From a virus, in IMG/VR virus record IMGVR_UViG_3300019751_000010, positions 1 to 25,974 of that record: a stretch of 25,974 nucleotides of DNA. One strand, 5' to 3'. The position numbers were made by a program, and so were the translations under genes. This document shows, piece by piece, positions 9,691 to 19,448 of this stretch (its first letter is position 1; every line of letters starts with the position of its first letter). The notes under the pieces are model-generated. The model saw only the letters and a list, made by a program, of their open reading frames with translations. It ran no database searches and had not been told where the DNA came from.

Positions 9691-10047
9691 CTACTGAGTC
9701 ATATTTTCTCTAATTTTTGTAGCGGAAATTGACTCTATTTCATCTCCTAAGAACTCCTGTTCAATCGTATACCCCACATCTCGACCATAGGTAATATGGG
9801 TGATGTTAGGTACTGCGATAACTGTGAAGTGAAGGTCTACCTCGTAACCATCCTCAGCGAGTGCTGAGATGATCTGAGTCTTTCTCTCTTCGACAGTGAA
9901 CGGGTTCTTTGCATCGACTTCCGTGTCTCTCAGAAGAATTGCTACCTGACCAGTTTTGGCAAGTGCTCTTTCAAAAAGAGCGGTATGTCCTTGGTGCCAG
10001 GGTTGAAATCTTCCAAGCATTTGCGTAGTTGGCTTAAATCTATCCAT
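9691..10047 (-). CDS. NMN-adenylyltransferase-like nucleotidyltransferase (short)
   Basis: A 118-residue protein. G12-RFQPWHQGH21 carries the HxGH motif (H18, H21) and I107-SATKIRE the ISxTxxR motif of the NMNAT/NadM family, so both ATP-binding signatures are present in a protein shorter than the usual 160-180 residues. NadM-type enzymes join NMN and ATP to NAD; in phages related proteins are thought to serve NAD salvage, but here the substrate is unproven. The start ATG 10047 has AAGGA seven bases upstream and lies inside the preceding kinase gene, giving a 106-base out-of-frame overlap that covers the HxGH motif. In some phages I recall kinase and nucleotidyltransferase parts being fused. 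Second enzyme of this fold in the window (see 1613-3106). Confidence 0.85.
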   Translation of the reverse strand: MDRFKPTTQMLGRFQPWHQGHTALFERALAKTGQVAILLRDTEVDAKNPFTVEERKTQIISALAEDGYEVDLHFTVIAVPNITHITYGRDVGYTIEQEFLGDEIESISATKIRENMTQ

Positions 10048-10391
10048 TCAGTTATCCTTATATTATAATCGCTAGGTTCTTGAAATGCCTTATTGGTATC
10101 CTCAAACCTACCTTCCTTTATTGTGTCCATCCAGATCATGAAATCACAAGGGAAGTTCCTTTGGAAAACATCTTTAGGACAAACGAAATCACAAATACCA
10201 AATCCCACTTCTGCCAAGTATCCGGCCATACGATGAAATTGTCGTTCTCTCCCTTCAGGGGTGAAGTCCCAATCATCATTGGCTTGTCGGATACTGTCAG
10301 CATTGAAATGCGGTATCATGAAATGGTAGGACAACTCCCTTGCGAGAGTTGTCTTTCCAGAGCCGGGCAAACCCATTATCAATATTTTCAT
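9942..10391 (-). CDS. APS-kinase-like P-loop kinase
   Basis: A 149-residue P-loop kinase starting at ATG 10391 with AAGGAG upstream. Walker A is G7-LPGSGKTT15; the FNADSIRQ segment (about 29-36), the R-x-R-Q-F-H-R-M helix and the D-F-V-C-P-K-D-V-F strand fit the adenylylsulfate kinase (CysC) family, which phosphorylates adenylyl-sulfate or, in broader relatives, other small substrates or polynucleotide ends. The last 35 residues (after RITEW) overlap the start of the NMNAT-like gene in another frame. Phage-encoded CysC-like kinases are often of uncertain substrate. It is the second gene of the unit that starts with the DUF932 protein. Confidence 0.85.
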   Translation of the reverse strand: MKILIMGLPGSGKTTLARELSYHFMIPHFNADSIRQANDDWDFTPEGRERQFHRMAGYLAEVGFGICDFVCPKDVFQRNFPCDFMIWMDTIKEGRFEDTNKAFQEPSDYNIRITEWIDLSQLRKCLEDFNPGTKDIPLFLKEHLPKLVR

Positions 10392-11650: not shown

Positions 11651-11908
11651 TTATACGAATTTTGCTAGGGTCTCAACAACCTTCACTAGTTTTTGTTTCA
11701 TCTGAGTGATCTCTGCTTCTTCCCAGATCAGTTCTGTGGTGCGAATATCACCAAGTAGTTCGATGTACTCTTCTTCTGTCAGTTCACCTTCACGTCTAGC
11801 ATGGACTATATCGATGATGACTTCTCCCAGTCTACTGGCTTCCCAGTCTTCATCTTCGTTGTCAATAACTTCTTGAAGAATCCTTTCTTCTTCGGTATAA
11901 CTAGTCAT
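11651..11908 (-). CDS. Small acidic helical phage protein
   Basis: An 85-residue, strongly acidic, helical protein beginning MTSYTEEERILQ. I use ATG 11908, which overlaps the preceding TGA (TGATG) and has GGAG nine bases upstream, instead of a TTG one codon earlier. No motif recognised. It follows the secreted cassette but itself has no signal peptide, so it marks the end of the exported block. Confidence 0.7.
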   Translation of the reverse strand: MTSYTEEERILQEVIDNEDEDWEASRLGEVIIDIVHARREGELTEEEYIELLGDIRTTELIWEEAEITQMKQKLVKVVETLAKFV

Positions 11909-12294
11909 CAATCATATCTCCTCATAACCGTTAACGCAATTGCTTCTGCTTGTTGTTGCAACACACCTTGTTTCAAGGCACAGTATCTTTGCGATACAGT
12001 TTCCTTCTCATACATGGGGTCTAGGGTTAGAGACATCTTATCCAATAGGTATTCAATGTCACTAGTACCTTTAGTTTCTACATAAGTACTTAACCAACCA
12101 TGCTTCTTATAGATGTCATCTATCATGTGTTTGATCAACACGGGATCAAGATCACAATCTAGATACATGATTGCCCATCTCAAATCAGTTACACCAGCTG
12201 CCTCATTGTCATCCCACTTGGATGGCAACAAACTACAACCAGTAATCAGCATCCCCAACAGGGTAGCTGTAATTATACCATTAAATCTTTTCAC
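11908..12294 (-). CDS. Predicted phage lipoprotein
   Basis: A 128-residue protein. Starting at GTG 12294, which has GAGG six bases upstream, gives MKRFNGIITATLLGMLITGCS, a classic lipoprotein signal with lipobox I17-T-G-C20; an in-frame TTG 12 bases earlier is less good. The residue after Cys is Ser, so sorting to the outer membrane is expected. The mature part is about 108 residues and helical, with two more Cys. Small phage lipoproteins next to a membrane coiled-coil protein can be outer and inner spanins of lysis, but the mature protein is not proline-rich and no endolysin is present, so spanin function is only one possibility. Confidence 0.75.
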   Translation of the reverse strand: MKRFNGIITATLLGMLITGCSLLPSKWDDNEAAGVTDLRWAIMYLDCDLDPVLIKHMIDDIYKKHGWLSTYVETKGTSDIEYLLDKMSLTLDPMYEKETVSQRYCALKQGVLQQQAEAIALTVMRRYD

Positions 12295-12302
12295 TGTCAA
12301 CC

Positions 12303-12782
12303 TCAATCTGATAAAGGATTATCTAAAGCTTTCTGCAATTTATCATCTAGTTTTTCTTCTAGTTCTTCGATCTCTTTTCGCAGTTTAGCATATGCTTGAT
12401 CGTAATCATCGGATAACTTATCTCGACGATTCTCAAATCTTTCTTCTGCATTATCTATAGTATCCCTAACTTCTACTTCTACGGAACGAAGTTTATCTTC
12501 CATACGATCTACACTCTTTTCAATAGCAAGTAAATCGTCACGAAGACCCGATTTAATATCACGGGTGTAATCAATTGCATCGTCAAGTTTGGATATGGTT
12601 AGTTCATTTTCTGCTCGGATAGCGTCCACGTCGATGTTTTGGACAATCTCTCTCATGTCCATGTAGTCCTTATAGAACTCAAAACCAGCCCACGATGCTC
12701 CACCCAGTGTAGACAGTGCGGTAAGTAAGATTGCCATCTTACCCCCAGTAAACTTCATTCCCGCAAATTCTACCTCTGCCAT
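12303..12782 (-). CDS. Membrane-anchored coiled-coil protein
   Basis: A 159-residue protein with a membrane segment at about 14-35 (GKMAILLTALSTLGGASWAGF) followed by roughly 110 residues of highly charged heptad-like coiled coil (MEDKLRSVEVEVRD, LRKEIEELEEKLDDKL). No cleavable signal is evident because the segment is preceded by an acidic N-terminus (MAEVEFAG). It likely sits in the inner membrane with the coiled coil on one side. It is adjacent to the lipoprotein gene with an eight-base gap, so the pair could span the periplasm. Inner-spanin-like or scaffold role are alternatives; neither is proven. Confidence 0.75.
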   Translation of the reverse strand: MAEVEFAGMKFTGGKMAILLTALSTLGGASWAGFEFYKDYMDMREIVQNIDVDAIRAENELTISKLDDAIDYTRDIKSGLRDDLLAIEKSVDRMEDKLRSVEVEVRDTIDNAEERFENRRDKLSDDYDQAYAKLRKEIEELEEKLDDKLQKALDNPLSD

Positions 12783-12784
12783 TC

Positions 12785-13240
12785 TTACTCCTCAAATTTT
12801 AGTTTACGTAGGTTGACAATCTCTTGTTGCAACCTCATAACTTCTAATCTCTTTTTTTCCAATTCTAATTTGTATAGTGCGTTACAGTTCAACCTTTCTT
12901 TAGGTGCACCGATTGGCACTGTGATCCTTGCGTATACACCAACGTTACGCATAAAGTCATCATTGTAAGGTAATACCGTTCTATTCGGGTCAACAAAACT
13001 GCCGTTCCCTATCCTGTATTGATCCCACGGATCATTTTGATCCATGATACCGACAACACCAAACTCTAAGTTCGTGGATGAACCGATAGCTGCTGAACAC
13101 TCAACGTCACCCGCTCTCACCCTGTCAGATTGAAAACTTTGTGGTGACTGTGGTATTGCCAAATTCAAAGAACCGGACTGTGCGTTAGCTGATCCTGCCC
13201 AGAAACTTATTACCAAACCAAATAATAATATCAATCTCAT
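12785..13240 (-). CDS. Secreted protein with C-terminal coiled coil
   Basis: A 151-residue exported protein. I start at ATG 13240 (ATGA overlap with the preceding stop), which gives the clean signal peptide MRLILLFGLVISFWAGSANA and cleavage before Q; an upstream ATG at 13255 would put an acidic residue in front. The mature part is Ser/Asn/Gly-rich and strand-like (GDVECSAAIG, NLEFGVVGI, VGVYARITVPIG) with two Cys, and the last 35 residues (LYKLELEKKRLEVMRLQQEI) form a helix with heptad pattern. The family is not recognised. The alternation of strands recalls outer-membrane or extracellular proteins. Confidence 0.75.
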   Translation of the reverse strand: MRLILLFGLVISFWAGSANAQSGSLNLAIPQSPQSFQSDRVRAGDVECSAAIGSSTNLEFGVVGIMDQNDPWDQYRIGNGSFVDPNRTVLPYNDDFMRNVGVYARITVPIGAPKERLNCNALYKLELEKKRLEVMRLQQEIVNLRKLKFEE

Positions 13241-13611
13241 TTTATTTTCGAACATATCCTTGAAGCGATCAAAGCTTTCGTGCCAGAATCCTTCACTAAT
13301 TTAGACCTTGAACAGATGTATGTTACTCTTTCACTGTCCGACTTTCGGATGTAGATGTTGACATCCATCCTACTCAAATACTTTACTCTCACAACTCTTT
13401 GTGCAATTGCAAAGGGGACTGGATTCCATTCACTGTCCCATACGTTTATCTGGTAGTACTCAACATCTTGTCTACCATTCCACAGTTCCATCTCTGCGAC
13501 CAGAACGCTTTCAACATACGATTGATTTAGTTCTGGGTAGGTGGGTGTCCACTCGTGGGCCCTCAGACCCACTGAGCAGAACACCAAACTTAGAATCATA
13601 ACAAAGCGCAT
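13237..13611 (-). CDS. Secreted small protein, unknown
   Basis: A 124-residue protein with signal peptide MRFVMILSLVFCSVGLRA cut before H19. The mature domain (about 106 residues) is strand-rich: VEYYQINVWD, PVPFAIAQRVVRVKYL, VNIYIRK, and two Cys at 100 and 120 that could form a disulfide in the periplasm. The pattern could be an immunoglobulin-like domain as in pilus chaperones, but I see no diagnostic Arg-Lys pair or other chaperone signature, so I leave it unnamed. I recall similar phage proteins in marine myophages in the neighbourhood of other exported proteins. Coupled to the next gene by a short overlap. Confidence 0.75.
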   Translation of the reverse strand: MRFVMILSLVFCSVGLRAHEWTPTYPELNQSYVESVLVAEMELWNGRQDVEYYQINVWDSEWNPVPFAIAQRVVRVKYLSRMDVNIYIRKSDSERVTYICSRSKLVKDSGTKALIASRICSKIK

Positions 13612-13615
13612 ACTA

Positions 13616-14113
13616 TTATATAGCTATACACTCAGCTGTTACCACTGCACGATATTGTCCAGCAGGAAAAGCTTTGTCATAACCATAATTAGCAGTTGAT
13701 GCGACTTTAAACCATGTGCTTCCAGCAATAGTCAAGTCGATCTCTGTCACGTTATTGTACTCAATTTTGTCGTTGTCATAGGCAGACATACCAGCATCAG
13801 ATACTTCTGATACAGTTACCTCTCCCGTCCAATTGACCACATCATTGAGATTAGGACTCTCTGTGAATGCATCCGGTCTTGAGATGACAGCCTTGTAGTA
13901 ATCCGCTTGGATCACATCATATCTAACGATAGGCGGTACACCACCATTCGACAGATTAGTTGTCAACGTATTTGGCGTTGGGTTACCATAGACACCTTGA
14001 GTGTCTGTTGTTACTACACACTTAGAATCTACAGAGCCCATAATTGGGACTTCGGCAGCTACTGCGTTAGACAACGTAAAAATGCCTAGTAAGGCAAATA
14101 TATTTTTAAACAT
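13616..14113 (-). CDS. Secreted pilin-like protein candidate
   Basis: A 165-residue protein with signal peptide (about 1-20, MFKNIFALLGIFTLSNAVAA) and a beta-rich, Asn/Thr/Val-rich mature part. The only two mature Cys are C32 near the start and C162 near the end, a layout that would tie the two ends of a sandwich fold, as in several fimbrial or coat-type subunits. Sequence elements such as STWFKVASTANYGYDKAFPAGQYRAVV near the C-terminus recall such domains, but the homology is not certain. AGGAG lies eight bases before ATG 14113. It could be the extracellular subunit of the cassette. Confidence 0.75.
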   Translation of the reverse strand: MFKNIFALLGIFTLSNAVAAEVPIMGSVDSKCVVTTDTQGVYGNPTPNTLTTNLSNGGVPPIVRYDVIQADYYKAVISRPDAFTESPNLNDVVNWTGEVTVSEVSDAGMSAYDNDKIEYNNVTEIDLTIAGSTWFKVASTANYGYDKAFPAGQYRAVVTAECIAI

Positions 14114-14139
14114 TATAGTGCTCCTATGTAAAATGTTTT

Positions 14140-15006
14140 TTATTTTTCATACTGTAGATTCACTAACTCTTGATGTAATAACTGTTGAGCGAGATTTTGT
14201 CTCCGTAACCTTTTATTGTCTAGAAGACTTGCATCTTTCAAAACAACAGTCTCTTCATATTTCGAGTCCGGAAGAACGTCAAAGTAATTAACCGGAATAT
14301 AATTCTGAGCCATCAATGACGTATGTTTACGTAATGATTCAGAGGCCAACAAAGAGTTGTTAACCGTACCCAAAATCTTCTCCAATCTCATGTCTTCTAT
14401 TTCTTCTTCCGACATCATTTTACGACGATCTCTATCTTCTTCATCTTCATCACGTGGTTCCCAATCCTCTTCTAGTTCTTTCTGAACCCACTGATCGTCT
14501 AGTGGATCATAAATCTCTATCTCCGGAATTTCCGGAACAGGCGGGATGTAGTCAGGGCAAGATGGGTCTGTAGTAACACCGAAACACGTATCGTAAGAAT
14601 AATTGTACAATACAGTGGCGTCCTCTACCGAACCTTCCCCTTCTACTTCAATCGACCCATCTCCCCAATACTCAAGCGGTATTGAATTAACGGGTACGAG
14701 TTTATTAATTGAGTTGCCAGGCAACCCACTCCAGTCATCTGCGTTCCTAAAGATATAACCACCATTGATGGCATCTTCGTTTTGAACATAAACAACCATA
14801 TCATCTTCTGCATTCTTTACCGTAGTATAACGGTATACGATTCCATTGACAGTCAATCCCGCATTCTGAGGCAGGATATTAGTCATTACCCAATTAAGAC
14901 CGAGTGCGGCCGCATTGGTTGAGGTTTCGTTTACTTGTTCAGAGTAAGAGTAGGACGAGCAGACTAGCAACGCCAGCACCGCCCAATAGTGTCTTGTTTT
15001 GATCAC
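14140..15006 (-). CDS. Secreted acidic protein with Pro-rich linker
   Basis: A 288-residue protein. The start is GTG 15006 with AGGAG seven bases upstream. The N-terminus MIKTRHYWAVLALLVCSSYSYSEQ is a signal peptide (cleavage near 22). The mature part has a beta-rich domain (about 30-150, with YRYTTVKN, MVVYVQNED, GYIFRN), two Cys near 144 and 153, a Pro-rich linker (DYIPPVPEIPEIEIYDP), a very acidic helix (about 170-215) and a C-terminal basic/helical tail. Its first 68 bases overlap the end of the upstream gene in another frame. No family recognised; the build suggests an extracellular or outer-membrane-attached protein. Confidence 0.75.
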   Translation of the reverse strand: MIKTRHYWAVLALLVCSSYSYSEQVNETSTNAAALGLNWVMTNILPQNAGLTVNGIVYRYTTVKNAEDDMVVYVQNEDAINGGYIFRNADDWSGLPGNSINKLVPVNSIPLEYWGDGSIEVEGEGSVEDATVLYNYSYDTCFGVTTDPSCPDYIPPVPEIPEIEIYDPLDDQWVQKELEEDWEPRDEDEEDRDRRKMMSEEEIEDMRLEKILGTVNNSLLASESLRKHTSLMAQNYIPVNYFDVLPDSKYEETVVLKDASLLDNKRLRRQNLAQQLLHQELVNLQYEK

Positions 15007-15547
15007 TCAGTGGCTCCTTTTTCTTATCTTCATCTTCAACAGGTAGATCGTCAGTATTTACTGACCATGCAGCTTTAGCTTCCTCACCTATTAGTCCGTC
15101 AAACGGACAAGGTGTACCAGCATTCATCATAGCGTCAAAAACCCGTGGGTCTTGACACATAAGAGATACTGCTGCAACTTTCATACCCATATCGAATAAT
15201 GTCTTAGAATTTTTTAATCTTTCACAGTTTTCGTCTGTTACTTGTGTGCCTGTTGAGATACCGAGTATCTGAGTCTGAATTGCACCCGCAACACCAAACG
15301 TACATAAGTCTGAGTTGGAGGTGTTGATCGTAGGGGAAATTGCTGAGGCCGGAGGCGACTTTAACACAGTTGTGGTCTTACCATTAGTAGTAACGGTAGA
15401 CTCAGTTATGATAGGTTCGATTGCAGGCGCTTCGGGTGCATCTGTGCCCCCGCTTCCGCCATCTTGAGCGTTAGCGTCTTCTGCCAGTAATCCGAAAGAG
15501 AACACACAAAGTGCAATCAAGGACAATTTGGTTATTGCGTTGTACAT
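14939..15547 (-). CDS. Secreted Cys-rich protein with C-terminal membrane anchor
   Basis: A 202-residue protein, first gene after the late-type promoter at 15581-15612. Signal peptide 1-27 (MYNAITKLSLIALCVFSFGL… ANA, cut before Q28), a Gly/Ala/Pro/Thr linker to about 65, a domain with four Cys (82, 108, 131, 147) with segments NSDLCTFGVAGAIQTQILG, DENCERL, MCQDPRVFDAMM and GTPCPFDG, an acidic spacer, and a hydrophobic C-terminus (LLGGAGVASLLVLLLL) ending at the last residue, as in a tail anchor. I recall the four-Cys domain from unnamed proteins of marine phages. The two pairs of Cys suggest disulfides, so the domain should be periplasmic or outside. The start codon ATG 15547 has no good ribosome binding site. 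Confidence 0.8.
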   Translation of the reverse strand: MYNAITKLSLIALCVFSFGLLAEDANAQDGGSGGTDAPEAPAIEPIITESTVTTNGKTTTVLKSPPASAISPTINTSNSDLCTFGVAGAIQTQILGISTGTQVTDENCERLKNSKTLFDMGMKVAAVSLMCQDPRVFDAMMNAGTPCPFDGLIGEEAKAAWSVNTDDLPVEDEDKKKEPLSDQNKTLLGGAGVASLLVLLLL

Positions 15548-15580: not shown

Positions 15581-15612
15581 TATTTATACAAGTAGTTATC
15601 TCAAAGCGTCAA
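15581..15612 (-). promoter_or_regulatory. T4-type late promoter overlapping a sigma70-like promoter
   Basis: On the minus strand TATAAATA (15588-15581) matches the T4 late octamer exactly, 34 bases before the first gene of the secreted cassette. The same bases give a sigma70-like TTGACG (15612-15607), 18 bases, TATAAA (15588-15583). The 82-base gap contains no gene. Confidence 0.65.
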
Positions 15613-15979: not shown

Positions 15980-16732
15980 TTAGTAGTATTTCTGAAAAAG
16001 GTGGTGAAGTAGTTCCGCATAGTAACTGTGCGATTCTTCGCCTGGATGTCCGTTAAACTTGAGGTCTCCGATCTTTTCTCTTGAAAGTGAGTATAGATCA
16101 TCTCCGACACCCAAACCCACTCTGGAAGATTTCCTTAATCTACCGAACATATTAGATATCTTGGTGGTGTAATCTTGCCATTCGGGACGATTGGTCAGGT
16201 ATATCATTCTAATATTTTCAAGGTTTCTTTCATGGAAGACACCCTGAACCAACTTAATACCTTTAGCGTCACATAGGTCTTGGAGGGCCAACATAAACGC
16301 CAATCCGTGAATAACATCGGTCTTGTATGTCTGACATATATTATACCATTGATGCATAGCACCCCATCGTTTAGACGCTAACCAGTTAATCCTATCAGCA
16401 GAGAACTGAGTCATACAGTCACTTCTCTGTACCTTCATTTCATATTCTTTATGGTCAAGTTCGTGCGACCCTTCTGCCAACTCGTTTCTTTGCCATGCTG
16501 ACCAAAGGACAACAACGTGAGTAATGTCATCATTTTTTGCAAGAGTCTCAATTGTGTCACGGAATATCTTCTCGTTTCCGTTACCACAGGCTGCAATGTT
16601 CAAAGGTTTAACACGCAACTTTTTCGCAAGCTGATATGTGAAGGTTAATTTCTCGTGTGTAGGTGGATTGTTATAACAGCCGGGCAGTTCATCTCCCCAT
16701 ACAAAACTACATCCACATGTTAATAATTTCAT
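15980..16732 (-). CDS. SGNH-hydrolase-like protein, copy 2
   Basis: A 250-residue protein, second of two tandem paralogues. It has block-I-like CGCSFVWGDELPG (G7-C-S9), CGNGNEKI as a possible block II (about 49-56), VVVLWSAWQRNEL where the block III Asn would be, and a C-terminal GHPGEESHSYYAELL (H229, H235) matching the block V His region. S9, H229 or H235 are candidate catalytic residues. SGNH enzymes hydrolyse or transfer acyl groups on sugars, lipids or peptides; the substrate here is unknown. I recall such phage proteins as a DUF family (DUF6071-like). It shares QDLCDAKGIKLVQG with its neighbour; the start overlaps the neighbour's stop (ATGA). Confidence 0.75.
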   Translation of the reverse strand: MKLLTCGCSFVWGDELPGCYNNPPTHEKLTFTYQLAKKLRVKPLNIAACGNGNEKIFRDTIETLAKNDDITHVVVLWSAWQRNELAEGSHELDHKEYEMKVQRSDCMTQFSADRINWLASKRWGAMHQWYNICQTYKTDVIHGLAFMLALQDLCDAKGIKLVQGVFHERNLENIRMIYLTNRPEWQDYTTKISNMFGRLRKSSRVGLGVGDDLYSLSREKIGDLKFNGHPGEESHSYYAELLHHLFQKYY

Positions 16733-17562
16733 GGTGCTCCCGGCGTCATGTTAGTAAATATCTCATAGAGCATCTTTGCATAATGCGTGTGTGTATTTTC
16801 ACAAGGATGTCCTAGAGGATATATGAAACAATCTGGTCTTGATTCAGCAATACTTGTCATGTCTCTGCCGTCACCAAAACCAAGTTTACATTCAGGTCTT
16901 AAATACTTTATATAGTGTTTTATTTCCTTTGTCGCAAACGGTAGAACATCTTCTTCCATGAGAACAGCTTTGACATTCTCCCATAAAGACCAATGAATGA
17001 TTCCTTGAATTAACTTAATACCTTTAGCATCACACAAATCTTGCATTATGGTCATGTAGTTTAGATGATGGAGAACTGGAGTTGCCATGGTGTAGGCATG
17101 TTTGAACCAATTTATACAGGCCTGTTCATGTTGTATTTTCTTTTCGTCTGCCCAGTGTTCGTTCCAACCTCTTAATCCAAAACGCAAACGTCCCTGATAA
17201 TGATCTGGGATTAATTGATTCATATTGCATTCTTGGAAAATCCAAACCTGTTCGTCAGTAGGTCTGTGATCCATACTAACAATTTCGGTTCTACCCCAAC
17301 TAGACCAAATGATAACCATGTAGTCAACTTGTTTAGAGGTTTTCTGTAAGAAGGTGGTGCCTCTTCTTAGAATTTTTTGATTGGACGCACCGTTAGCCCC
17401 TAAGTTTACATAATCACGGTCTAAGTGTTCTGCTAGTTTGTGGGAGAATGTGAGATGATGATGGATAGGCGCCATAGGCCTACCCTTCTCATTGAGTCTT
17501 CTAGAGCCAGGCAGTTCATCGCCTTGGGTGAAACTATCACCATTAGTCAGTAGTATTCCCAT
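16729..17562 (-). CDS. SGNH-hydrolase-like protein, copy 1
   Basis: A 277-residue paralogue of the next gene. NGDSFTQGDELPG has the typical G-D-S nucleophile region (S10), NLGANGASNQKI (about 53-64) block II, VIIWSSWGRTE the position of block III without a clear Asn, and GHPCENTHTHYAKML near the end the block V His region (H252, H258/H260). With a true GDSF it is the more canonical of the pair; the other has GCSF. Divergence is high outside the motifs, so the duplication is old. It starts at ATG 17562 inside the end of the preceding DUF3310-like gene (20-base overlap). Modification of a surface glycan or a tail component is possible; unproven. Confidence 0.75.
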   Translation of the reverse strand: MGILLTNGDSFTQGDELPGSRRLNEKGRPMAPIHHHLTFSHKLAEHLDRDYVNLGANGASNQKILRRGTTFLQKTSKQVDYMVIIWSSWGRTEIVSMDHRPTDEQVWIFQECNMNQLIPDHYQGRLRFGLRGWNEHWADEKKIQHEQACINWFKHAYTMATPVLHHLNYMTIMQDLCDAKGIKLIQGIIHWSLWENVKAVLMEEDVLPFATKEIKHYIKYLRPECKLGFGDGRDMTSIAESRPDCFIYPLGHPCENTHTHYAKMLYEIFTNMTPGAP

Positions 17563-18010
17563 GTATTCTATCGTGCTCGAATAACATCAAAAACCCGTAA
17601 TGAATAATCTTCATTATATCTTTTCGATGATCTTCTGCTGCTCCTTTTTTACCGTAACGTCCATTGTATTTATCAACATTGCCAGAAAAGAAACCCATAC
17701 CATGACCACGATCAATGATCACTTCAGACGATTGTAGTCCGCCTTGACCATAGTGTGCACCATAGGTAGAATCGATGTAGTTCTGAAACTCTTCGATAAG
17801 TTCACCTTCACGAAATTTATATTCAATTTCTTCCATATCATAATCCAAGTTGTTGTAGTCACTATCAGTGACCGTAAATATTTCTTCACCGGATGCTCGT
17901 TGAGATTCCATTGTTTGTTTTCGTTTGATTTCGTCTAACCACGCCCGGTTCATTTCATTCCACTGTTGTGGTGTGATATCATCGATGCTGCCGTTATTTG
18001 TTTTCGCCAC
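17543..18010 (-). CDS. DUF3310-like phage protein
   Basis: A 155-residue protein. The start is probably GTG 18010 (GAGG ten bases upstream, 17-base overlap with the preceding stop); an ATG at 17953 is an alternative. The N-terminal third is acidic and disordered-looking. Residues about 85-150 carry YGQGGLQSSEVIIDRGHGMGFFSGNVDKYNGRYGKK then DIMKIIHYGFLML, the G-N-x-x-K-Y-x-x-R-x-x-K-K pattern of DUF3310 (a small phage domain, sometimes called SaV-like). Function unknown; the domain often lies in nucleotide-metabolism regions of phages. Here it separates the ANL enzyme from the SGNH pair. Confidence 0.75.
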   Translation of the reverse strand: MAKTNNGSIDDITPQQWNEMNRAWLDEIKRKQTMESQRASGEEIFTVTDSDYNNLDYDMEEIEYKFREGELIEEFQNYIDSTYGAHYGQGGLQSSEVIIDRGHGMGFFSGNVDKYNGRYGKKGAAEDHRKDIMKIIHYGFLMLFEHDRIHGNTTD

Positions 18011-19448
18011 TGTTCAAGTACCTCACTCTGTTGACTTCATATTCATCAAATCCATATTCAAACTGGTTCTTTAAAGCATGCCAGTCCCTATACCTGCTAT
18101 TTTCCAAACAGAAGGCCATCTTATCAGAAACACCTATGTCTGTCAAGCCTAATGTATCTAGCATCTTCATTTGGTGCGCTGAGGGTTCTTCGAACACTGC
18201 GAGATAGTTTAGGGCGTTCTTACGCAACAACCAGAAATTATCATGACCCAATATATGTTCTACACGTTCTTGGAATGGATGTACCTCAACAAAACCCTTG
18301 AAGATGTACTCTGCATTATCCAACTTCTCCAACTTAAACGATAGGGGATAATACTTGGTATCATTATGAGAACGAACAAAGCACACATTCTTCTGTGGAC
18401 TGTGTACTACCTCATAGTAGTTGTCCGCTATGAACCCTACACTGTCTTCAACATATGATCCTTTTATTGGTTTTACAAAAAGAGTCATACATTTGGATCG
18501 GGTCTCACCATACATAATTGCACAATTCAATTGTCTCTCATCACACAGGTCATGAAGTTCTGGTGTGATCACTCCCATAGGGGAAACGAACTCTATTCTT
18601 TTTGCTTGTTCAGGCGTAATATCTCTAGTACAAACTTCCAAGGTTTCTACATTCTTGAAGAAGATAACCTTTCTATCATCCATCTCAAAGACGTTCTTTA
18701 AGGCCTTACCTAGACCACCCAGTTGCCACATCTCTACCCTATCCCACCAGTTCACAAAGTAGTGTTCTGTTGAACCCATGAAAGAGGCACACGTATATGT
18801 GATGAAAGACATGCCATGCAACACATTAAAAGAATGGACACCAATAGTGTCCTTCATGTTAAACAATTTATAGTGACGATGAGCTAGACCCCAACACTCC
18901 TTGTGAGTATAATACTGGTACTCAAATCCGTCTTCGAACTGACCATCCGAATAGGTGACCCAAAGAGGATCGTCGGGTAGAACATCTGGATGATCAAACT
19001 CAATCGGTTCATTATAGTTTTCAATGTCTACAGTATCGAGGTTTATCATTTCAACCTCAACAGTATCCTCGTAATACTCTTCCTGAACTCCATCCAACAT
19101 CTTAAGTGTCAAGGAATCCCAAAATCCAAATGATGCGGGCAAGTCTGTCGCAACCATAGGAACCTTTGCTTTCGGATTCCAAGCTAAGTTAGCAGAAAAA
19201 ACCTGTGCACCTAGTTCTGCACAAGCCATAACGAGAGCGGTAGTCTTCACATTGTTCTTTGAAACACCAAGACCAACCAATTGACCCTTGCGTAGTCCAT
19301 ACTCGTTTGATAGATACGCTTTCCACTTGTCGATAACATCCCAAAAACGTTCCTTGTCATAAGGTGTTGGATCACCCAACATTTGATTCATAACGTTTCT
19401 GAGTTGAAGTTGTTCTCTGTTTTGAATCAAGTATCGATCAATAATCAT
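17994..19448 (-). CDS. Divergent ANL-superfamily adenylating enzyme (acyl-CoA-synthetase-like)
   Basis: A 484-residue protein with AGGAG six bases before ATG 19448. Residues about 35-90 (WKAYLSNEYGLRKGQLVGLGVSK … ALVMACAELGAQVFSANL) are typical for the N-terminal part of acyl-CoA synthetases and related ANL enzymes. PLWVTYSDG (161-169) stands where the A3 loop (YTSGTTG) should be but is degenerate; YYTHKECW follows, then LHGMSFITYTC (210-220) as in the family and CAIMYGETRSKCMT (309-322) at the A5 motif (YGxTE). The C-terminal third is less clear; the A8/A10 Lys is not certain. ANL enzymes activate a carboxylate with ATP to an acyl-adenylate. Degenerate A3 may mean altered chemistry or lost activity. 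Not a usual phage gene to my knowledge. Next to the SGNH pair. Confidence 0.65.
   Translation of the reverse strand: MIIDRYLIQNREQLQLRNVMNQMLGDPTPYDKERFWDVIDKWKAYLSNEYGLRKGQLVGLGVSKNNVKTTALVMACAELGAQVFSANLAWNPKAKVPMVATDLPASFGFWDSLTLKMLDGVQEEYYEDTVEVEMINLDTVDIENYNEPIEFDHPDVLPDDPLWVTYSDGQFEDGFEYQYYTHKECWGLAHRHYKLFNMKDTIGVHSFNVLHGMSFITYTCASFMGSTEHYFVNWWDRVEMWQLGGLGKALKNVFEMDDRKVIFFKNVETLEVCTRDITPEQAKRIEFVSPMGVITPELHDLCDERQLNCAIMYGETRSKCMTLFVKPIKGSYVEDSVGFIADNYYEVVHSPQKNVCFVRSHNDTKYYPLSFKLEKLDNAEYIFKGFVEVHPFQERVEHILGHDNFWLLRKNALNYLAVFEEPSAHQMKMLDTLGLTDIGVSDKMAFCLENSRYRDWHALKNQFEYGFDEYEVNRVRYLNSGENK

Follow-up and report, generated by a model that had tools for sequence, protein, structure and literature searches.

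A block of seven genes, P1 to P7, lies on the minus strand of a viral record of 25,974 bases (IMG/VR record IMGVR_UViG_3300019751_000010; this whole stretch is referred to below as the window). We tentatively read the block as a late operon that builds an envelope complex around a chaperone-subunit pair without an usher, most likely altering the surface of the infected cell. The virus, a marine bacteriophage, is called T4-like here, UvsX- and gp41-like genes having been recognised by eye in the window; the thymidylate synthase gene of the window has matches among annotated phage genes. The components of the block are as follows:

15581..15588, minus strand: late promoter motif TATAAATA, T4-type, starting 41 nucleotides (nt) upstream of the P1 ATG
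14939..15547, minus strand: P1, exported protein of 202 amino acids (aa), four invariant Cys in the mature part, C-terminal hydrophobic tail
14140..15006, minus strand: P2, exported protein of 288 aa, acidic middle, conserved C-terminal stretch, two invariant Cys
13616..14113, minus strand: P3, exported, perhaps pilin-like protein of 165 aa, C32 and C162 invariant
13237..13611, minus strand: P4, exported single-domain protein with the predicted fold of fimbrial (PapD-like) chaperone domain 1, C100 and C120 invariant
12785..13255, minus strand: P5, exported protein of 156 aa (or from 13240), C53 and C124 invariant
12303..12782, minus strand: P6, N-terminal transmembrane (TM) segment and coiled coil, C-terminal NPL
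11908..12306, minus strand: P7, lipoprotein, lipobox LITGC

A sequence-only reading of the window had placed seven open reading frames (ORFs) here, the first five in succession (15547 to 12785) bearing Sec signal peptides, and both statements are borne out. When a simple rule for n-, h- and c-regions was applied to the 41 selected window ORFs of at least 60 aa, exactly five passed, namely the consecutive P1 to P5. The same rule, using the first start of each ORF, was passed by 59/81 homologues of P1, 56/81 of P2, 55/80 of P3, 66/77 of P4 and 71/78 of P5, as against 60 of 1129 other ORFs (at least 100 aa) from the same loci. None of the 72 P6 homologues passed with the first start, while 19 did so if any start in the first 40 codons was allowed (background 78/1129). 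The even numbers of cysteines that had been pointed out correspond to alignment columns with Cys in every sequence, of which P1 has four (37/37 sequences) and P2 (23/23), P3 (38/38), P4 (36/36) and P5 (38/38) have two each. The membrane anchor ascribed to the end of one protein is recovered as the conserved C-terminal hydrophobic tail of P1, and the membrane coiled-coil protein and ensuing lipoprotein are likewise found: P6 has, by eye, one N-terminal TM segment followed by a coiled coil, ending in NPL as do most aligned P6 relatives, and P7 carries the lipobox ..LITGC. By eye, P5 consists of two strand-like stretches and a C-terminal helix.

Two starts in the block deserve comment. The most likely start of P2 is the GTG at 15006, which lies inside the end of P1 and has AAGGAG 8 nt upstream, while P5 may start at 13240, overlapping the P4 stop, instead of at 13255. 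Within positions 14939-15006 the hydrophobic tail of P1 and the signal peptide of P2 are encoded by the same DNA in two frames; among the aligned P1 relatives from SAR11 phages, such a tail was seen, by eye, only in HTVC115P.

Conservation of the block was assessed in loci drawn from a P1 scan of IMG/VR, which returned at least 560 P1 relatives, the best 80 of which were kept together with the window; many loci are near-duplicates, and 36 P1 representatives are left at 85% identity. Being the best 80 relatives, the sample is biased towards near kin. The order P1-P2-P3-P4-P5-P6 is collinear in all 66 close-kin viral loci with room for it (at least 3,500 nt beyond P1), and the genes flanking the P1-P6 block differ widely among loci. 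A P7-like gene is present in 18 of these 66 loci, adjoining P6 in 12. Ratios of nonsynonymous to synonymous substitution (dN/dS), calculated against a relative with 95% identical P1, are 0.12, 0.26, 0.27, 0.19, 0.09 and 0.18 for P1 to P6, respectively, and show that these genes are under purifying selection.

The promoter that had been placed ahead of the cassette is also upheld. The motif TATAAATA occurs three times on the coding strand of the window and not at all on the other, 0.78 being expected per strand. Counted from 150 nt upstream to 40 nt inside each ORF, it is found at the P1 start in 49/80 loci (many of them near-duplicates) versus 59/1399 control ORF starts, and is absent from the starts of P2 (0/81), P3 (0/80), P5 (0/78) and P6 (0/72). 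This enrichment at the P1 start fits one late operon led by P1, and the block is probably switched on late in infection. The motif also lies near the P4 start in 10/77 loci, as a second late promoter or by chance. In ten loci with a lysozyme gene directly upstream of P1 (L030, L034-L038, L047-L049 and L081) the motif is missing there, so that transcription of the lysozyme gene may continue into the block, which would then be co-transcribed with this endolysin.

By its model and by profile comparison, P4 is a protein with the fold of fimbrial chaperone domain 1 and a remote profile similarity to these chaperones. Structures of P3 and P4 were modelled with AlphaFold2 and searched with Foldseek and VIA-align. 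The P4 model (predicted local distance difference test, pLDDT, 88.9) retrieved fimbrial chaperone entries in 11 of 50 Foldseek rows, including rows 2, 3, 5, 7, 8 and 12, and in 37 of 50 VIA-align rows, the latter with Z-scores (Z) of 9.2-10.4 over 93-107 residues and covering domain 1 only; the chaperone chain was assigned from entry titles and alignment ranges. The VIA-align alignment with FimC, for example, spans residues 1-114 only. The remaining 13 VIA-align rows, with Z level with those of the chaperones, have the same general fold: CsxA domains (six rows), MSP-type domains (five rows), a WxL protein and an ASH domain.

In a profile test with hhalign, comprising 33 comparisons with column shuffles and control families, only sequences that could be extracted without doubt were used (8/14 chaperones, 11/16 SCPU sequences and 15/29 OEP loci), the others being omitted. 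An alignment of 46 P4 relatives matched eight bacterial PapD_N proteins with a score of 31.3 (hhalign probability 53%, E-value (E) 1.4e-4) and with 89 columns in register, whereas the best of 60 column shuffles reached 16.8 and the P1, P2, P3 and P5 profiles scored no higher than 12.9 against the same chaperone set. The test supports a kinship of P4 to chaperones in particular. The two invariant cysteines of P4 fall one in each of its last two predicted strands, and an F-G disulfide is found in some fimbrial chaperones; K122 of P4 would presumably fall near the position of FimC Lys112.

P3, encoded directly before P4, is perhaps pilin-like, an assignment that is weaker than that of P4. The pilin-like cysteine layout noted in the sequence-only reading stands, one Cys lying near each end of the mature protein (C32 and C162), while fold support for a pilin is weak. 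With the P3 model (pLDDT 89.7), 26 of 50 Foldseek rows are fimbrial subunits. A search of BFVD with P3 gave no match below E 0.001 and no useful named family.

Several results weigh against these two assignments and hence have to be set beside them. Foldseek ranks a potassium channel first for P4 (E 8.6e-4, no other row being below 0.001), and a CsxA domain heads its VIA-align list with Z 10.5, tied with the chaperones. Taken alone, P4 of T4-like phages scored 23.7 against the eight chaperones, the second highest of the 33 comparisons, and P4 of Vibrio phages scored 16.6, within its own shuffles (best 17.3); since the P2 control reached 23.1 against SCPU by chance, only the joined P4 score stands out. 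That joined-family comparison with eight chaperones was a later attempt, which may count against its score; with a first set of seven chaperones, neither T4-like P4 (17.0, best shuffle 20.4) nor Vibrio P4 (16.8, best shuffle 17.4) had exceeded its shuffles. Single-sequence searches of Pfam and NCBIfam returned no fimbrial or PapD match, and P4 lacks the second chaperone domain, the 36 aligned P4 members (134 columns) ending after domain 1. As regards P3, the query-normalised TM-scores of its Foldseek rows do not exceed 0.46, its 50 VIA-align rows include no Z of 8 or more and hold MSCRAMM adhesins, integrins and others without any fimbrial pilin, and its SCPU profile score of 18.2 is exceeded by that of the P2 control mentioned above.

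Single-sequence searches with P1 to P5 returned no informative Pfam, PHROG or NCBIfam function, the Pfam list obtained with P6 was set aside as coiled-coil noise, and sequence-profile searches of the PDB with five profiles gave nothing below E 0.09. A TolC-like (OEP) identity of P5 was considered, single P5-type proteins matching OEP weakly (E 0.065 and 0.0017), and was dropped, the P5 profiles scoring 12.5-14.5 against 15 OEP sequences, i.e., at shuffle level.

Relatives of P3, P4 and P5 also occur together in other phages. P5 weakly matches 70 Vibrio-phage records (E about 4e-3 to 5e-3 among the matches listed), and in one of these phages, pVp-1, the two genes before the P5-like gene are P3- and P4-like, with hhalign E of 5.9e-7 (P3), 3.7e-7 (P4) and 5.6e-13 (P5). 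The P3- and P4-like proteins of pVp-1 are each present in 179 Vibrio-phage records, with genomes of about 57-62, 79, 83-85 and 111-129 kilobases (kb) among the matches listed, while P5 of phage PS14A.1 is found in 185 records, 180 of them from Vibrio phages. The P3-P4-P5-like ORFs are collinear in all six Vibrio-phage loci examined, although the P3 match in one of them (L101) reaches only E 0.03. The order changes to P4-P5-P3 in Klebsiella phage vB_KvM-Eowyn and Erwinia phage pEa_SNUABM_56, where P5 matches clearly (E 3.5e-9 and 7.9e-9, respectively) and P4 weakly (E 0.004 and 0.03), P3 having been judged by signal peptide and Cys layout only. A plasmid of Vibrio nigripulchritudo (one examined of two matching records) carries, in this order, a P3-like gene (E 0.003), a gene for a second Cys-bearing exported protein, a P4-like gene (E 2.2e-6) and P5 (E 5e-19). 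The PLSDB gene table for plasmids is incomplete, and the P4-like ORF (L120:6610-7017, plasmid NZ_AP027051), which sits between the exported proteins and the P5-like gene, is missing from it.

On the boldest reading, P3-P4-P5 would be a mobile secretion module not described before, a ‘mini chaperone-subunit’ system that phages and plasmids carry and in which an immunoglobulin (Ig)-like subunit is displayed on the envelope without an usher, P5 replaces the outer-membrane part, and several phage lineages use the module late to rebuild the host surface; as a whole, this generalisation is rather doubtful. No description of a phage chaperone-pilin module was found in the literature searched, as judged by titles and the beginnings of abstracts.

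P1 has a different distribution, matching 14 phage records at E 0.01 or better, from SAR11, Roseobacter, Achromobacter N4-like and uncultured phages. In several SAR11 phages, P1 is followed by a P2-like exported protein and, soon after, by a P6-like TM coiled-coil protein mostly ending in NPL; the P2 likeness across groups is weak (16-23% identity; HTVC115P E 3e-4), and the SAR11-phage loci examined contain no match to P3, P4 or P5. Searches of 50,697 phage records with tblastn returned nothing for P2 at E 0.01, nothing for P3 at E 1 and a single P4 match at E 0.9. A genome scan with P3 recovered three loci only, on phage-like contigs of metagenome-assembled genomes (MAGs) that also carry P1/P2-like genes. 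In one Rhodobacteraceae MAG (G013; loci L097, L098 and L104), P2 has five separate matches, each on a contig of its own; the bin probably combines several phages and could hint at the host.

The proposal may be spelled out as follows. P1 to P6 would form one late operon, with P7 as an optional addition, and its products would assemble into an envelope complex of the infected cell. P1 to P5 would leave the cytoplasm via Sec and form disulfides, and P6 would stay in the inner membrane with its coiled coil reaching into the periplasm. P4, equivalent to chaperone domain 1, would hold or cap the pilin-like P3 without an usher and with P5 as a constant partner, while the tail-anchored P1 together with P2 would represent an add-on pair shared with SAR11 phages. 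Most likely, the cell surface would thereby be changed late, keeping other phages, or the progeny set free, from adsorbing to a cell that is already lost or to its remains. Complex formation, a location beyond the periplasm and the function itself are what we infer here; the analysis itself shows the genes, their order and conservation, N-termini resembling signal peptides, the late promoter motif, the P4 fold with its remote profile match, and the return of P3-P4-P5 in other phages. The claim of the sequence-only reading that the cassette makes an envelope or surface structure late in infection agrees with the Sec-type signals and the late-type promoter and gives the cassette its likeliest sense; the fixed order of the genes in near relatives and the likeness of P4 to fimbrial chaperones go further than that reading did. 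The CsgG-like secretion gene looked for near homologous cassettes did not turn up: the CsgG pore (PF03783) was detected in none of nine records of 29-155 kb, some of which may be incomplete, and in 4 of 14 control genomes. A curli assembly was rejected on this ground.

The choice of a surface change over other outcomes was guided by gene neighbourhood. The gene just upstream of P3 belongs to phrog_10818, a family of large proteins, in all five Vibrio-phage loci tested (L094 and L099-L102), whatever the phage type, and by eye its product looks like a fibre protein, hinting at a connection with host recognition; exclusion modules would look much like such a combination of a fibre with proteins that change the surface. 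Against this connection, phrog_10818-like genes are also found without the module (257 records, of very different genome sizes, versus 179), and PHROGs gives the family no function. In phage vB_VhaS-tm the block is flanked by capsid and head-tail genes. No gene of phrog_10818 size adjoins the block in the window, the Klebsiella and Erwinia phages or the plasmid, so that the receptor link rests on the Vibrio phages. In addition, an usher (PF00577) was found in none of ten viral records of 37-155 kb, which may be incomplete, and was found in the control E. coli; with P4 lacking a second domain and no usher found, export past the outer membrane is not explained.

A role of the block as a lysis accessory, in which the exported proteins would weaken the outer membrane or open it as infection ends, P6 and P7 form a spanin-like inner/outer-membrane pair and P1 to P5 are their periplasmic partners, is placed close behind the surface-change reading, though in itself it is unlikely. 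It draws on the late promoter motif, on a P6/P7 topology that by eye resembles an i-/o-spanin pair and on the proximity of lysis genes, which also tells against a surface change: in 10/72 loci the 1 kb upstream of P1 contains the start of a T4-type lysozyme gene, whose end lies 4-409 nt before P1, and these are the loci in which the missing TATAAATA suggests co-transcription with lysozyme. Among the larger relatives, the lysozyme gene ends just before P1 in G010 and lies about 3 kb upstream in G012. In seven more loci lysozyme ends 2.6-5.4 kb upstream of P1, an Rz-like pair is present in the flanks of 13/81 loci at 3.9-8.6 kb from the P1 start, and P1 lies near an M15 peptidase or lysozyme in SAR11 and Roseobacter phages. 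In the Vibrio T5-like phage pVp-1, two small genes separate P3-P4-P5 from a T-type holin and an M15 endolysin downstream; a spanin survey counts pVp-1 among the phages with both spanins, their genes not being named in its main text (PMC6139136), and pVp-1_0079/0080 could be these spanins. Other Vibrio phages, however, have HNH, head-tail or unknown genes after the block rather than lysis genes, with an M15 peptidase 2.3 kb beyond it in Vibrio phage 1.205.O. Among ten larger relatives, moreover, seven have an Rz1-like gene and eight a T4-type lysozyme, as separate genes; in the 147-kb relative nearest to the window these lie about 43 kb and about 27 kb from P1, respectively, and P7 adjoins P6 in only the 12 loci given above. 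P6/P7 as the sole spanins of the phage were set aside, given the Rz1-like gene of the larger relatives and the rarity of P7 next to P6.

The perhaps pilin-like P3 and the chaperone-like P4 would also suit a surface fibre that sticks infected cells together and so captures siblings, the chaperone-pilin pair doing the work proposed for curli in other SAR11 phages; curli genes of SAR11 phages are read as exported surface fibres (PMC7029224, PMC9599517). We consider this quite improbable: the searched records yielded neither usher (0/10) nor CsgG (0/9), each cassette holds a single pilin-like gene, and a study of the curli phage Melnitz saw no clumping (PMC9004378). Least probable among the readings weighed is that the exported proteins act on the virion, coating or maturing particles while these are released or afterwards, or serving as chaperones of a tail fibre. 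In the five Vibrio-phage loci with phrog_10818, P3 does directly follow large virion-type genes, but five proteins bear Sec-type signals and the plasmid copy of the core sits in a 14.4-kb stretch without annotated virion genes.

Compared with known systems, the block is closest to chaperone-usher fimbriae (FimC/FimA, Caf1M/Caf1, CsuC/CsuA-B), with which it shares the domain-1 fold and remote profile match of P4, the pilin likeness of P3 by Foldseek and the adjacency of the P3 and P4 genes; it differs in that no usher was found, the chaperone has one domain, P5 is a constant third partner and the setting is a phage late operon. The curli or type VIII secretion clusters of SAR11 and OM43 phages are likewise phage-encoded sets of exported proteins in marine phages, but CsgG was missing from the nine records, and the P1-P6 families are not named in the passages on phage curli that were consulted. 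T5 Llp, a superinfection-exclusion envelope protein, is likewise exported and is encoded beside a host-recognition gene, but it is one small lipoprotein, while the present block comprises six conserved genes. Two-component spanins (Rz/Rz1) resemble P6 (N-terminal TM, coiled coil) and P7 (lipoprotein) in topology by eye, whereas P7 is mostly absent and separate Rz1-like genes exist in seven of the ten larger relatives.

Elsewhere in the window, two adjacent ORFs at 9691-10391 match two halves of phrog_10255 (named kinase) and are perhaps a split or frame-shifted fusion. Two neighbouring ORFs at 15980-17562 belong to one protein cluster, which occurs upstream of the cassette in 23 loci, and a 484-aa ORF at 17994-19448, without PHROG match, resembles, by eye, an AMP-binding (acyl-CoA synthetase-like) protein.

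To our knowledge, tailed phages are not known to export sets of folded envelope proteins, curli-like clusters aside. The strict conservation of a late operon that includes a protein resembling fimbrial chaperones, together with the spread of its core, suggests that remodelling of the Gram-negative envelope by mobile elements follows a widespread route still without a name. Vibrio phages of several kinds carry this core; for a Klebsiella jumbo phage, an Erwinia phage and a plasmid this is less certain. As the 179 Vibrio-phage records with P3/P4-like genes include isolates on laboratory hosts, and cultured Vibrio phages such as Thalassa and Bennett (listed host BAA-1116) carry P3, P4 and P5, the effect of these proteins on the infected cell is open to experiment.

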